A stretch of DNA of 64,000 bases from Phycisphaerales bacterium (GTDB lineage: Bacteria > Planctomycetota > Phycisphaerae > Phycisphaerales > UBA5793), in assembly GCA_020852515.1 (NCBI GenBank), contig JADZAS010000011.1, positions 186,001-250,000 of the forward strand, read 5' to 3'. Numbering within the stretch: position 1 is the stretch's first letter; each line of letters starts with the position of its first letter. Positions 4,301 through 15,133 of this stretch are shown piece after piece. The translations under genes and the position numbers were made by a program. The notes beneath the pieces were generated by a model, which was not told where the DNA came from, searched no databases, and saw nothing but the letters and a program-made list of their open reading frames with translations.

Positions 4301-5236
4301 ATGACCGCCGCGACGCTCACTCCTGAACCCGCAGCGCAGGCCGAGGCCTCATTCCGCGCCTGCATGGAGCTCGCGCTGAGCCACTACGAGAACTTTTCGG
4401 TCATCAGTCGACTCCTGCCGCGCGAACACGAGCGCGACTTCGCGGCGGTCTACGCCTTCTGCCGCACCGCCGACGATGCGGCCGATGAACGGGCCAGCAA
4501 GGCCGATTCGCTGGCGGAACTGGCCGAGATGCACAGGCAGGTCGACCGCTGCGCCGCCGGCGGGGTCGTCGAGGGTCCATACTTCCCCGCGCTCGCGGTC
4601 GTCATGTCCAGCCACGGCGTCCCGGCCGAGCTGTTCCATCGCCTGCTCGACGCGTTCGAGCGCGACCAGCGCCAAACCCGCTATGAGACTTGGGAGGACC
4701 TGCTCACGTATTGCACGGGCAGCGCCGATCCCGTCGGGCGGATCGTGCTGCTCATTACCGGCCATGGGGATCGACCCCAGATCGACGAGATGTTCCGCCT
4801 GAGCGACTGCACATGCACCGCCCTGCAACTGACCAATTTCTGGCAGGATGTGGTTCGCGACCTGCTCGAACGCCATCGAATCTACATCCCGGCGGAGATG
4901 ATGCGCGAGCACGGCGTAAGCGAGGCCGCCCTGCAGCGGATGATCGAGCGGCGGCAGGCGGATGAGTCGTTCCGAAGTCTGGAGCGGACCCTGGCGGCCC
5001 GGACGCAGCCGCTGTTCGACGAGGGTAAGGGGCTCTGGCCCCATTTGCGGCCGCCGGTCCGGCCTGCCATTCAGTTGTTTACGGCAGGCGGTGAATCGAT
5101 CCTGCGCGCGATCCGGCGGCAGCGCTATGATGTCATCATGCGCCGGCCCACCCTCAGCCGGTTGGGCAAGGCGGCGCTCGCGGCGAGGGCGTGGATCGGG
5201 CTTCGGCTTGGTTTGGACGTGTTCAGAAATGGGTGA
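4301..5236 (+). CDS. hpnC: Squalene biosynthesis protein HpnC (hydroxysqualene synthase)
   Basis: Trans-isoprenyl diphosphate synthase fold of 311 aa. HpnC converts presqualene diphosphate, made by HpnD, into hydroxysqualene. The first aspartate-rich motif is RTADDAADE (about residues 56-63) and the second is FWQDVVRDLLERHRIYIP. Both are intact, so the enzyme is expected to be active. The ATG at 4301 starts the family-typical N-terminus; an open frame extending 1.2 kb upstream is only the antisense of ispH. The stop overlaps the first ATG of hpnD by one base (TGATG), which indicates translational coupling in an hpnCDE operon. Confidence 0.93.
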   Translation: MTAATLTPEPAAQAEASFRACMELALSHYENFSVISRLLPREHERDFAAVYAFCRTADDAADERASKADSLAELAEMHRQVDRCAAGGVVEGPYFPALAVVMSSHGVPAELFHRLLDAFERDQRQTRYETWEDLLTYCTGSADPVGRIVLLITGHGDRPQIDEMFRLSDCTCTALQLTNFWQDVVRDLLERHRIYIPAEMMREHGVSEAALQRMIERRQADESFRSLERTLAARTQPLFDEGKGLWPHLRPPVRPAIQLFTAGGESILRAIRRQRYDVIMRRPTLSRLGKAALAARAWIGLRLGLDVFRNG

Positions 5237-6219
5237 TGATGAGCCGATCCGCAGCCACCACCGTCACCGCCAACTCGCTCGCTGAGCCGCAGGATCCCGC
5301 CGCCCAGCAGACTGCGTCCCCGGCTCTGCGCGACGCCTACGAGCAGTGCCGCCGCATCACCCGCGCCAACGCCCGAAACTTCTATTTCGGCCTGCGACTG
5401 ACGCCCGAGCCCAAACGGTCGTCGCTCTACGCCATCTATGCATGGATGCGGCGGGCTGATGACCTCGTCGATGACAGCCTGGGCGATGAGGCCGCCCTGG
5501 CGGACTTCCGAGAACGGACCAGCCGCGTGTTCCGAGGCGCCTGGCGGCCGCATCGCGATGCCGAGCACGCCCTCGAAATCGGCGCCGATCATGCCATGTG
5601 GCACGCCTTCGCCGACACGGTCTCGCGATTCCGACTCCGCGAGACGGAGTTCCGCGAGATGATCGAGGGTCAACTCTCCGATCTGCACGGCGCCAAATAC
5701 CGGACACTGGACGACCTGGTGACCTACTGCCGCCACGTGGCCTCGACGGTCGGCCTTGTCTGCATCTCCGTCTGGGGCTTTGACGGCAGCGCGCGGGCCC
5801 GGCGGCTGGCCGAGTGGCGGGGCATTGCGTTTCAACTGACCAACATTCTGCGCGACTACGCCGAGGATTACGACGTCGGCCGCGTCTACCTGCCCGCCGA
5901 CGACTTTGCCCGCTTCAACCTCTCGCCTGAGGAGTTGCGGAACTGGTCCAACCCTGAGGCGTGTCTCGAGTTCATGCGCTTCCAGATCAAGCGGGCCGGG
6001 GAGTATTACGATCGCTCGGCCCCGCTGGCGGAAGTGGTGCATGAAGACGGGCAGGCGGCTCTGGCGGCGATGACGCGCATCTACCGCCGCCTGCTCGAGC
6101 TCATCGCCGTCACCCCCAGGCGGGCCGCCTCCGGGTCGGGCCGCATCCGCGTGGCTACGTCACGCAAGATCATGATCGGCCTCACAGCCGCGTGGACCAG
6201 GCGGCGGAGCGGCTCGTGA
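5236..6219 (+). CDS. hpnD: Presqualene diphosphate synthase HpnD
   Basis: Condenses two farnesyl diphosphates to presqualene diphosphate, the first step of the three-enzyme bacterial squalene route. The squalene/phytoene synthase fold shows both metal-binding motifs: MRRADDLVDDS near residue 75 and NILRDYAEDYDVGRVYLP in the C-terminal half. The start is one of two adjacent ATGs, and the one at 5236 overlaps the hpnC stop. A rather long proline/alanine-rich N-terminal extension precedes the fold. The 3' end overlaps the hpnE start (GTGA at 6216-6219). Confidence 0.93.
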   Translation: MMSRSAATTVTANSLAEPQDPAAQQTASPALRDAYEQCRRITRANARNFYFGLRLTPEPKRSSLYAIYAWMRRADDLVDDSLGDEAALADFRERTSRVFRGAWRPHRDAEHALEIGADHAMWHAFADTVSRFRLRETEFREMIEGQLSDLHGAKYRTLDDLVTYCRHVASTVGLVCISVWGFDGSARARRLAEWRGIAFQLTNILRDYAEDYDVGRVYLPADDFARFNLSPEELRNWSNPEACLEFMRFQIKRAGEYYDRSAPLAEVVHEDGQAALAAMTRIYRRLLELIAVTPRRAASGSGRIRVATSRKIMIGLTAAWTRRRSGS

Positions 6220-10760: not shown

Positions 10761-11282
10761 TCAGAAGTGGTTTCGAATGAGGTAGTCGGCAGCGTCGCGC
10801 TCGCCCAGGCGGGACACGTCGAGCACCACATCGGCGACCATGCGGTAGATCGGGTCTCTCTGTGCCAAGACGATCTCGATCTCTTCTGACGGCGGCCGGC
10901 CCGTGAGTGACGGCCTATCTCCCGCTTGGGCGGTGAGCCGGCGTCGCAGCTCGACCGCGTCGCAAGCGAGGTAGATGACCTTCAGCCGACCCGCCGCGCG
11001 AGCCGCGTCAATCGCCTCCTGCACGGCCGGCACGAGCGGCGCCCCGCCCCCGGCCGCGATGACCTGATCATCGGCCTTGAGCAGTTCGGCGATGACGCGC
11101 CCCTCCGCGTCGCGCCACGCCGGCTCGCCGTGGACCTGCCAGACCTCCGAGATCGTCCCTTCGGCGAACTGGGCGAGCACGACCTGATCCATGTCGATGA
11201 ATTTTCGCCACAACGCGTCGGCGATGATGCGCGCCAGAGTGGACTTTCCGCTGGAACGAGCGCCGATCAGCATGATGTTCAT
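10761..11282 (-). CDS. aroK: Shikimate kinase
   Basis: Phosphorylates shikimate at the 3-hydroxyl in aromatic amino acid synthesis. It is 173 aa, typical for the family. The Walker A motif is IGARSSGKSTLAR at residues about 6-18. FIDMDQ provides the Mg/shikimate-binding aspartates, VIAAGGGAPL the substrate-binding glycine loop and DRPSLTGRPP the lid arginine. The start follows GAGG and lies nine bases after the stop of the squalene-synthase-like gene, so the two are probably cotranscribed. No other aro gene is nearby. Confidence 0.9.
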   Translation of the reverse strand: MNIMLIGARSSGKSTLARIIADALWRKFIDMDQVVLAQFAEGTISEVWQVHGEPAWRDAEGRVIAELLKADDQVIAAGGGAPLVPAVQEAIDAARAAGRLKVIYLACDAVELRRRLTAQAGDRPSLTGRPPSEEIEIVLAQRDPIYRMVADVVLDVSRLGERDAADYLIRNHF

Positions 11283-11291
11283 GGGGCATCC

Positions 11292-12365
11292 TCAGCGGTG
11301 CGGCACGGGATCGGATTGATTCATCGGCAACTCCACCGCGAGAGGATCGGCCGAAGCCTGCGCAGACGCCGCCAGCCTCGGGTCGATCCGCCGGGCAATG
11401 GCGTGGCGCCACGCGCGGAAGCGATACGCCCGCAGGCGGTCCGGCAGGGCCAGCGGCGGCTCGTGCCTCCCCAGTGGTTCACCGCACAGCGCCGCGCCCC
11501 ATACCCCGACGACCGCCGCGACGGCACGCCCGGCCCCGCCCGGCAGGAGCTCCAGAAGCCCTGCGGCGTGAACCAAATCGGCCAGGCACTCGCGGCGAAG
11601 CTGCGCCAGCAGCAGTGTGCAGCGGCGGTCAAGTTCTGAATCGGGCTCGGTCTCCGCGCCGCCAATCCACCGGACCAGGTCCGAATCGCGCAGCGAAAAG
11701 CGCGACAATGTCTCCAGCGAAACCAGGCAGCGATCCTCCGCAATCAGTGAGCGGCGGAGCGTAAGCAATTCCCGGGCCTGCATGATCGCTCCCGTGGCGC
11801 CTGCGGCCATCGAGCAAAGCTCACCAGCGACTGGATTGGGGAGCACGATGCTTGCCATGATCTCCGCCAGCGGCCCGGCGACGGCGCCGACCAGGTTTTC
11901 GCGGGTGCGGCGCGTGGCGACACGCCGCACCTCGACGCCAGCGCTGCACCCGTCAACGAACGCATCAAAGGCAGCGCGCGGCAGCTGGCGGGCCTGCCGC
12001 ACCGCGACAAAAGCCTCGAGTTCGGGCCGGCCGATCGACGCGGCCTCAGCCTCTTCGAAAAGGAACGAGACGATATTGTGGGCCACGGCCGTGCGCTGCG
12101 CCAGCGACCCCGAGCCGCACCCGCACCCCAGGGCGGCCGGCGGCTTGGGTCCGTTGTCTTCAGCGGCCGGATCGCGCTCCACCTCGCGGCCGGCCACCAC
12201 GTCCGACAGCAGTCGCAGTACGGCGGCTGCGGCGAGCAGCTGGTCGCGCGGGTCACGAGGGAGGAATCGCACGGCAAGCCAGATGTCGGGCGCGCTGCGC
12301 CGACAGGCGCGATGCAGGATCGCCGAGTGGCGGTGGTCCACGGGCGCGGCGACGTTACGCGTCAT
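11292..12365 (-). CDS. Degenerate squalene/phytoene synthase-like protein
   Basis: A 357-aa protein aligning by eye to the same fold as HpnC and HpnD. IWLAVRFLPRDPRDQLLAAA matches the N-terminal helix. FDAFVDGCSAGVEVRRVATR followed by NLVGAVAGPLAEIMASIVLP matches the central region. ELLTLRRSLIAEDRCLVSLE matches the region of the second aspartate-rich motif. Both metal motifs are altered: DDxxD reads LLSDVVAG, and QDxxxD reads LRRSLIAED. A GCGCGSG insertion follows the first motif. Catalysis by the known mechanism therefore looks unlikely. It might be a non-catalytic partner or a divergent enzyme. It is cotranscribed with aroK. Confidence 0.6.
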   Translation of the reverse strand: MTRNVAAPVDHRHSAILHRACRRSAPDIWLAVRFLPRDPRDQLLAAAAVLRLLSDVVAGREVERDPAAEDNGPKPPAALGCGCGSGSLAQRTAVAHNIVSFLFEEAEAASIGRPELEAFVAVRQARQLPRAAFDAFVDGCSAGVEVRRVATRRTRENLVGAVAGPLAEIMASIVLPNPVAGELCSMAAGATGAIMQARELLTLRRSLIAEDRCLVSLETLSRFSLRDSDLVRWIGGAETEPDSELDRRCTLLLAQLRRECLADLVHAAGLLELLPGGAGRAVAAVVGVWGAALCGEPLGRHEPPLALPDRLRAYRFRAWRHAIARRIDPRLAASAQASADPLAVELPMNQSDPVPHR

Positions 12366-12689: not shown

Positions 12690-14126
12690 TTACTGAAGTT
12701 CTATCGCCACGTAGGCTCGCGCCGAGTCATATCCCGCCAGCCGTCCAGACCCGCTCACGACCGCCTTGCGCACGGCGAAGCGGATGATCGTACCGGGCTT
12801 GGAGGATTCGATGAACTCGAAGAGCCATTTGGCCCAACTTCGGCCGTTGTAGCCGACACGCGCCGCCTGGAGCGGCTGGCCGTTGACGGCGACGATGAGA
12901 TCGCCCGCCGCGATTCCGCTCAGTTGCGCGGGCCGGCCGGGCACGAGTTGCGACACTTCGACACCGGTCTGCTCGCCGAGATTGCGCAGCGCGGATTCGG
13001 TCACGTCGAGCAGGCTCACGCCGAGTCGCCCGCCCTGATTCGGATCGATGATCTCGCGATGCACCTCCGCGTCGGTCTCCTCCATCTCGGCCAGCGTCAC
13101 TTCGAAGGTGCGCCGCCGCGCATTTCGATAGACCTCGACAACGATCCGCTTGCCCGGCTCCATCATCGCGACCTGGCTGCGCAGATCTTCGACGTTGAGC
13201 ACGGGCCGATCGTCGATCGAGGACAGAACGTCCTCCGCCAGCAAGCCGGCGCTCCCGGCGGGAAACCTCGGGTCAACTTCCGTGAGCAGCACGCCGACCT
13301 GATCGCGCGGCAGGCCGTAGCTGACGGACAGCGCCGGAGTGAGATCCTGAAGATTGACACCAAGCCAAGCGCGCACGACGCGCCCCTTATCGATCAACTC
13401 GCGCGCGATGTAACTGGCCAGCGAGGTGGGGATGGCAAAGCCGAGTCCATCGGAGCCGCCGGTCTGCGTGACAATCGCCGCGTTCACGCCGACGACTTCG
13501 CCGCGCAGGTTGAGCAGAGGCCCGCCTGAGTTGCCGCGGTTGATGGCGGCGTCGGTCTGGATGAAATCTTCGTACCCGCGTCGCCCGATGGAACTGCCGA
13601 CGATATTGAGCCGGCGGTTGGTCGCGCTGATCACGCCCACCGTCACCGTCTGATCGAGGCCCAGCGGGAAGCCGACGGCGACGACCCACTCGCCGACTTC
13701 GAGCTGGTTCGTACTCGCGAACGGGAGCGCGGCGACGCCATCGCTCTCGATCTTCACCACGGCCAGATCGGTCAACGGATCAGCGCCCACGAGCGTGGCC
13801 GGTTTGATGCGGCCGTCGCTGAATTCGGCGAGCAAGGTGAGCGAGGCTTCGACGACGTGGTTGTTGGTGAGCAGGTGGCCCTGCTTGTCGATGAGGAAGC
13901 CCGATCCGGTGACCTTGGCGCCGCCGCGCGTGTAGCCGGTGATGCGCGCCACGCTGGGGCTGGCCTCTTCGGCGACGGCTTTGAAGGCGTCGCTGATCTC
14001 CATGGCCCGGGCCACGGCCGGGTGCTCAATCTGGGCCGCCGTGGGCCCGGCAAGCGCCAGTGTCATCGTTGCGCAGAGCACTGCCGCGAAGCCGCGCCCT
14101 GTTCCAATCCTGTCAACTTCGTTCAT
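12690..14126 (-). CDS. HtrA/DegP-like serine protease with two PDZ domains
   Basis: Periplasmic quality-control protease of 478 aa. A signal peptide (residues about 1-31, ending GPTAAQ) precedes a trypsin-like domain with the triad His90 (LLTNNHVVE), Asp120 (LTDLAVVKIE) and Ser200 (RGNSGGPLLN). Two PDZ domains follow, around residues 270-360 and 380-460. Motifs include GLLAEDVLSSIDDRPV and GIAAGDLIVAVNGQPL. The ATG at 14126 follows GAGGA and gives a clean signal sequence. The gene lies 84 bases downstream of ispE on the same strand. The catalytic residues are intact. Confidence 0.92.
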   Translation of the reverse strand: MNEVDRIGTGRGFAAVLCATMTLALAGPTAAQIEHPAVARAMEISDAFKAVAEEASPSVARITGYTRGGAKVTGSGFLIDKQGHLLTNNHVVEASLTLLAEFSDGRIKPATLVGADPLTDLAVVKIESDGVAALPFASTNQLEVGEWVVAVGFPLGLDQTVTVGVISATNRRLNIVGSSIGRRGYEDFIQTDAAINRGNSGGPLLNLRGEVVGVNAAIVTQTGGSDGLGFAIPTSLASYIARELIDKGRVVRAWLGVNLQDLTPALSVSYGLPRDQVGVLLTEVDPRFPAGSAGLLAEDVLSSIDDRPVLNVEDLRSQVAMMEPGKRIVVEVYRNARRRTFEVTLAEMEETDAEVHREIIDPNQGGRLGVSLLDVTESALRNLGEQTGVEVSQLVPGRPAQLSGIAAGDLIVAVNGQPLQAARVGYNGRSWAKWLFEFIESSKPGTIIRFAVRKAVVSGSGRLAGYDSARAYVAIELQ

Positions 14127-14209
14127 CACCAATCCTCGATTATCGATCAGACTCCCCGGGCGACCCTTCAACAAGACGCATGCAGCCGCCCGCTCATCCC
14201 ATCACACGA

Positions 14210-15133
14210 TTACAGTCGGCCCGGTTCGCCCGCAGCCTCGAGCCCGACGGCGATGACGGGCGCATCGAGGCGCTGCGTCGCCGTGTGGGCGAGCATCCCC
14301 GCCTCAAGCGCCGACTCGCAAACCACAAACAGGCTCGAGCCGCTGCCGGTTACATGAACCGGCCGCTCGGATAGATCGGCCAGATCGGCCGCGAGCCGGG
14401 CGAGATCGGGCTGCAATTCAAACGCGGCGCGGGCCAGATCATTGAACGGCGCATCACTGCGGACGCGCCCGGCGGCCGCCATGGCCCGTACGCGCTGCGC
14501 TGCCTGCTCGAAAGGGCCGTCGCCGGGCGCGTAACCGTCAAACAGCCGGTACACCTCACCCGTCGCACAGGCCAGATCGGGCATACAAAGCGCCAGGTGC
14601 AGGTCGTCCGGCTGCCCGGCCGGGCTGATCCGCTCGCCGAAGCCCTGCACGATAGCTGAAGGGTGACGAAGAAAGAACGGCACGTCGCTGCCGATGCGGC
14701 CGGCCAGTTCGTGCAGGTGATCGAGCGTCAGATTGAGTTCGAACAGCGCGTTGCACGCGAGCAGCATCGATGCGGCGTCGCTCGAACCTCCGCCCAGGCC
14801 GGCGCCGAGCGGAATGCGCTTCTCGATCTTCATCTGCACCGGCAGGTCGCGCCCGGTGGCCTCCTGGAGAAGCAGGTGCGCGCGGACGGCAAGGTCCTTG
14901 CGGATTGGCCAGTCGATTTCGGGTCTGTGCACGGCGTCTTCGGCCCACATGATCGCGTAGCGAGAGAGCGAGCCGCCGGGCAGGCGCGTCAGGGTCAGAT
15001 CGTCACAAAGCGAGATGCGCACCATCCACGAGCAGATCGGATGCCGCGCATCGCCCGACGCCGAATCGGCGCGGCCGACGGCGAGTGCGAGATTCACCTT
15101 CGCCGGGGCGCGAAATGTCACCGAATCGGCCAT
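14210..15133 (-). CDS. ispE: 4-diphosphocytidyl-2-C-methyl-D-erythritol kinase IspE
   Basis: GHMP kinase of the MEP pathway that phosphorylates CDP-ME at the 2-hydroxyl. It is 307 aa, slightly longer than usual. The N-terminal motif APAKVNLALAVG carries the catalytic lysine. The ATP-binding glycine loop IPLGAGLGGGSSDAASML lies at residues about 107-123. The C-terminal VHVTGSGSSLFVV is the third GHMP motif. The region between residues 20 and 60 differs from the common LHVxxRRxDGYH segment: here it reads GDARHPICSWMVRI. It supplies the same pathway as ispH in this window. Confidence 0.9.
   Translation of the reverse strand: MADSVTFRAPAKVNLALAVGRADSASGDARHPICSWMVRISLCDDLTLTRLPGGSLSRYAIMWAEDAVHRPEIDWPIRKDLAVRAHLLLQEATGRDLPVQMKIEKRIPLGAGLGGGSSDAASMLLACNALFELNLTLDHLHELAGRIGSDVPFFLRHPSAIVQGFGERISPAGQPDDLHLALCMPDLACATGEVYRLFDGYAPGDGPFEQAAQRVRAMAAAGRVRSDAPFNDLARAAFELQPDLARLAADLADLSERPVHVTGSGSSLFVVCESALEAGMLAHTATQRLDAPVIAVGLEAAGEPGRL

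Follow-up and report, generated by a model that had tools for sequence, protein, structure and literature searches.

The window, that is, the whole stretch of 64,000 nucleotides analysed here, contains the gene for a protein with the squalene/phytoene synthase (SQS/PSY) fold that lacks the aspartates of this family. The protein is called pSQS below, and its gene, motifs, and neighbours are collected in Table 1. PF00494 has exactly three members in this genome: HpnC, HpnD, and pSQS. An earlier note on this DNA placed intact HpnC and HpnD about 5 kb from pSQS, and the aspartate motifs of both are present in the alignment. The stop codon of hpnC overlaps the start codon of hpnD at positions 5233-5236, which suggests that the two genes may be translationally coupled. 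With the HpnD model TIGR03465, pSQS scores 24.4 bits, below the cut-off (as does the genuine HpnD of the window), and a match to the HpnC model TIGR03464 is not listed for pSQS at E values up to 10. Squalene-hopene cyclase and HpnE are also encoded in the genome; a route to squalene and hopanoids is thus present even without pSQS.

Table 1. Genes and features around pSQS, in window positions
Feature	Position	Strand	Description
hpnC	4301..5236	+	Intact Asp motifs; NCBIfam TIGR03464 (HpnC) 266 bits, over the cut-off of 250.45
hpnD	5236..6219	+	Intact Asp motifs; best NCBIfam match TIGR03465 (HpnD), 203 bits, under the cut-off of 278.6
aroK (shikimate kinase)	10761..11282	-	PF01202, E 1.1e-30; directly downstream of pSQS, 9-bp gap
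pSQS	11292..12365	-	Asp-less SQS/PSY-fold protein; 357 aa + stop, ATG start
Degenerate second motif	11724..11774	-	RELLTLRRSLIAEDRCL, residues 198-214, replaces N..RD...D..GR.YLP; from the alignment
Cys-containing insertion	12087..12191	-	Residues 59-93, CGCGSGS motif (Cys81, Cys83); from alignment and model
Degenerate first motif	12186..12206	-	SDVVAGR, residues 54-60, replaces DDxxD; from alignment to 44 intact relatives
HtrA/DegP-like protease gene	12690..14174	-	Upstream of pSQS, 324-bp gap; syntenic in 5/5 genomes
ispE-like gene (MEP pathway)	14210..15133	-	Upstream of pSQS; syntenic in 5/5 genomes

The two upstream genes are taken to be HtrA/DegP-like and ispE-like from their sequence and general knowledge. 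The gene order ispE-htrA-pSQS-aroK is found in all five genomes of the genus. The position of pSQS next to aroK, already pointed out in the earlier note, is a same-strand adjacency in each of them, with a gap of about 9 bp in G004 and 12 bp in G001; in G002 and G003, the stop codon of pSQS overlaps the start codon of aroK. The conserved linkage of pSQS in the genus is thus with aroK, htrA, and ispE and not with hpnCDE; within an 18-kb stretch around the pSQS of G002, hpnCDE were not found. Past aroK and one further gene, the window has a split cytochrome b gene pair, and cytochrome b was likewise not found within the 18-kb stretch of G002. Neither dnaA nor a crtC-like gene adjoins pSQS in this genus. 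The aroK regions of 14 genomes from other families contain zero relatives of pSQS, and a scan for promoters and terminators gave nothing useful.

The family assignment comes from profile and structure. The PF00494 SQS_PSY profile matches pSQS with 46.9 bits (E 3.7e-12), over its curated cut-off of 26 bits. An AlphaFold2 model built with 11 relatives as input has a pLDDT of 82.7 and a pTM of 0.81, and a Foldseek search with this model ranks HpnC, CrtM, and squalene synthases at the top. A second structure aligner superposes it on the CrtM-like structure 8is6 with Z 27.8 and an rmsd of 2.4 over 270 aligned residues, while other terpene synthases reach Z values of at most 13.1. The all-alpha SQS/PSY fold spans the whole chain in this comparison. 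Moreover, the predicted model of a remote aspartate-less member from G457 has the same fold (Z 29.8). The PF00494 match and the predicted structure bear out the proposal that a third SQS/PSY-fold protein is encoded here; structure prediction gave this fold and no different one.

In the SQS/PSY family, the aspartates hold Mg-diphosphate groups. Alignment to 44 intact relatives, with columns numbered after L158, confirms that the DDxxD of pSQS is altered and that its second motif is without DxxxD, as had been noticed from the sequence alone. The DDxxD position reads S-D-V-V-A, with the second Asp kept and the first and third lost, and the first motif is SDVVAG, SDIVAG, SDVIAG, or ADIVAG across the five genus members. 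The second motif has lost its two Asp, the N, and the Q but keeps R212 of the R.YLP stretch. Eleven aspartate-less relatives were aligned, comprising the five genus members and six remote ones from family f6. F38, Y57, D64, D151, Y166, Q201, and N204, invariant in the 44 intact enzymes, are absent from all 11 rows, and D208 and D212 from nearly all. P46, R217, P221, and R275 are mostly kept and are likely structural positions. The same motif losses occur in 5/5 genus members and 6/6 remote relatives, none of which has intact aspartates, and the residues that replace the former catalytic ones differ among them. At the level of sequence, the loss of catalysis in pSQS is well supported: with both motifs gone, the protein should neither hold Mg-diphosphate nor couple isoprenyl diphosphates.

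The gene has a full-length open frame in 5/5 genus genomes, with 38-76% identity between the proteins. In comparison with the two nearest genomes, its dN/dS is 0.24 and 0.21, above the 0.02-0.19 of the neighbouring genes; against a third genome it rises to 0.44, and the neighbours rise as well (0.08-0.28). These values, well below 1, indicate that pSQS is under purifying selection in the genus, and together with the five full-length orthologues they rule out a chance open reading frame or a pseudogene. On the other hand, no other gene of the neighbourhood evolves as fast as pSQS (50% identity versus 74-98% for the neighbours), and the constraint on it is therefore weak.

A first single-sequence search had suggested that pSQS is restricted to its genus. 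This was overturned by iterated profiles, which found six remote aspartate-less members in six further genera, all of family f6 in the same order, where 6 of 51 genomes carry such a gene. The remote members share with pSQS a Cys-rich loop after the first motif and a conserved GKPELDGF-type stretch. A conserved operon could not be recognised in f6: a peptidase M16 gene is the only neighbour common to two genomes, and dnaA lies beside one. The latter case is G526, where the aspartate-less gene adjoins dnaA as several intact third genes do.

A third, intact CrtB-like synthase gives the best matches in family f106 of the same class. In several genomes its gene adjoins dnaA and a gene for uracil-DNA glycosylase, and in several a CrtC-like gene (E 1.7e-12 with the NCBIfam CrtC model, below the cut-off). 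G759 and G740, also in f106, have partly decayed copies of the third synthase that are still followed by the CrtC-like gene. In these two genomes (L181 6730-8768 and L182 2870-4840), the decayed synthase and the following CrtC-like gene are both highly diverged, as if the gene pair had decayed together. A CrtC-like gene of 387 aa is also present in the genome of the window (G000 contig C25, L192 1105-2268, minus strand; also L193-L196). In G000-G003 it is flanked by an mraY-like and an ftsW-like gene, and its similarity to the CrtC-like gene that accompanies the intact third synthase is only 25-30%. It was considered as an old partner of pSQS but is not put forward as one, given its mraY/ftsW-like locus and a relative in G005, which lacks pSQS. 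Separately, an HpnC-like gene beside ispH in G052 (L103 5310-6749, minus strand; PF00494 E 6e-17) has lost both aspartate motifs; placed with HpnC by tree and alignment, it is by these criteria a second, independent decay.

Pairwise BLASTP of pSQS gives an E value of 6e-15 against the intact third synthase L153, compared to 0.079 against HpnD and 0.58 against HpnC. In a tree of 58 proteins, a branch with support 99/96 sets the aspartate-less rows, the two decayed copies, and ten intact third genes on one side, and a branch with support 99/99 joins the aspartate-less proteins with the partly decayed copies of G759 and G740. In the AU test, grouping with HpnC (p 0.027) and with HpnD (p 0.003) is rejected, whereas a tree in which the ten intact third genes make up a single clade is not (p 0.25). 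Since this alternative is not rejected and the aspartate-less rows form long branches, the exact branching point is unsure. The long branches may exert a pull, but the placement with the third synthase agrees with the pairwise score, the synteny, and the loop. The synteny bridges are dnaA, common to G526 and intact third genes, and the CrtC-like gene, common to decayed and intact copies. By this sequence evidence, pSQS is a descendant of the third, CrtB-like synthase, with the G759 and G740 copies as bridging intermediates, and pairwise scores, tree, and AU tests rule out HpnC or HpnD as its parent. The resemblance to HpnC and HpnD that the earlier note saw by eye thus stands at the level of fold and fails at the level of sequence; the pseudo-enzyme idea is supported, but the protein is no sibling of HpnC and HpnD.

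The Cys-rich loop lies directly after the lost DDxxD, beside the former metal site. The Cys81 column is invariant in 11/11 aspartate-less relatives, in whose insertions Cys makes up 32 of 422 residues versus 58 of 3419 elsewhere (Fisher p 4e-10, a value that overstates the enrichment because the rows are related). The number and spacing of Cys vary among these relatives. The same loop already contains 3 Cys in the intact third synthase L152 and 2 in L153, so that on this tree the Cys loop predates the loss of the aspartates. Loop Cys are found in none of the HpnC proteins and are lacking in most HpnD. The loop has low confidence in both models (in that of pSQS, partly), and its geometry is unreadable.

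In this group of planctomycetes, pSQS probably became a non-enzymatic helper or binding protein. With reasonable confidence, it can be regarded as a catalytically dead descendant of the CrtB-like third synthase that is kept as a folded non-catalytic partner or as an isoprenoid-binding regulator. On this proposal, a third head-to-head prenyl synthase would have lost its aspartates, Mg-diphosphate groups would no longer be held, and the coupling of isoprenyl diphosphates would have ceased. The surviving helical bundle, with the Cys-rich loop next to where the metal site used to be, could then serve as a surface that binds an isoprenoid or, as dead regulatory paralogues do, a partner enzyme. We infer the partner role, for which HpnC, HpnD, HpnE, and squalene-hopene cyclase are candidate targets. 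A more specific version, in which the Cys-rich loop took over from the abandoned Asp-rich metal/diphosphate site and pSQS acts as a metal- or redox-responsive isoprenoid-binding regulator, is very doubtful.

The pseudo-enzyme idea has come through the comparison of folds and orthologues, and the rival that pSQS is an enzyme with changed chemistry has become less likely, because hardly any of the catalytic residues survive and those in their place differ from one relative to the next. Such an enzyme would bind an isoprenoid or another hydrophobic substrate in its cavity but act without ionising a Mg-diphosphate; the Cys loop might serve it as a metal site. The kept fold and structural positions, the Cys-enriched loop, and its one invariant Cys in 11/11 rows agree with this, but the former catalytic positions reveal no new arrangement of residues and the number and spacing of Cys differ, which leaves it distinctly improbable. 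If pSQS were instead a remnant of the third synthase in decay, drifting with hardly any function or none, this would explain the fast evolution, the sporadic presence in f6, and the partly decayed copies in G759 and G740. This reading is quite unlikely in view of the full-length frames at 38-76% identity, the dN/dS of about 0.2, and the position before aroK, kept in 5/5 genomes.

Alternatively, pSQS could act non-catalytically in the building of a membrane or respiratory complex, as its assembly factor or chaperone, unrelated to isoprenoid supply. The model for this is NDUFAF6/NDU1, for which available accounts describe the same fold, the absence of both DxxxD motifs, and a link to complex I (PMC8007014, PMC12470011), and the split cytochrome b pair in the window would fit. 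However, cytochrome b was not found in the 18-kb stretch of G002, and with descent from the planctomycete third synthase a function shared with NDUFAF6 would be convergence; the assembly factor is accordingly held to be unlikely.

The catalytically dead partner or isoprenoid-binding regulator can be compared with several known systems. Among CrtB/CrtM-type head-to-head prenyl synthases, its nearest intact kin is the third paralogue of family f106. Fold, length, helix order, and the structural P and R positions are like the CrtB/CrtM type, whereas the two Asp motifs have been lost, along with the conserved Q, N, Y, and F; unlike the third synthase of f106, pSQS in this genus is not beside crtC-like or dnaA genes. 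With HpnC and HpnD it shares the SQS/PSY fold, in contrast to the insignificant pairwise scores and the separate place in the tree. Taken at face value, a PF00494 label, or an automatic name such as squalene or phytoene synthase, would suggest one squalene or carotenoid enzyme too many. No bacterial aspartate-less SQS/PSY branch turned up among the papers searched, where the described case is the eukaryotic NDUFAF6, and literature searches on planctomycete squalene genes yielded no description of the pSQS family. One bacterial class contains intact, half-decayed, and fully aspartate-less relatives side by side, some of them with conserved gene neighbours, and the route from enzyme to pseudo-enzyme is therefore traceable step by step and testable.

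AdoMetDC prozyme and the GGPPS small subunit, described in available accounts as catalytically dead regulatory paralogues (PMC5201418, PMC11974751), are likewise non-catalytic relatives beside live enzymes and offer a model for the possible action of pSQS. They belong to protein families other than that of pSQS. The eukaryotic complex I assembly factors NDUFAF6/NDU1, compared by published description, resemble pSQS in having the SQS/PSY fold without both motifs. NDUFAF6 lacks both DxxxD motifs of SQS/PSY enzymes according to published accounts (PMC8007014, PMC12470011), and a nematode relative is reported to have shown no synthase activity. Unlike pSQS, NDUFAF6/NDU1 are mitochondrial, and the same accounts describe no Cys loop. 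The loss in pSQS falls within a bacterial CrtB-like clade, in a tree that holds no NDUFAF6 sequences, and this argues for a separate origin of the two. NDUFAF6 is nevertheless a precedent for an SQS/PSY fold retained in a non-enzymatic role.
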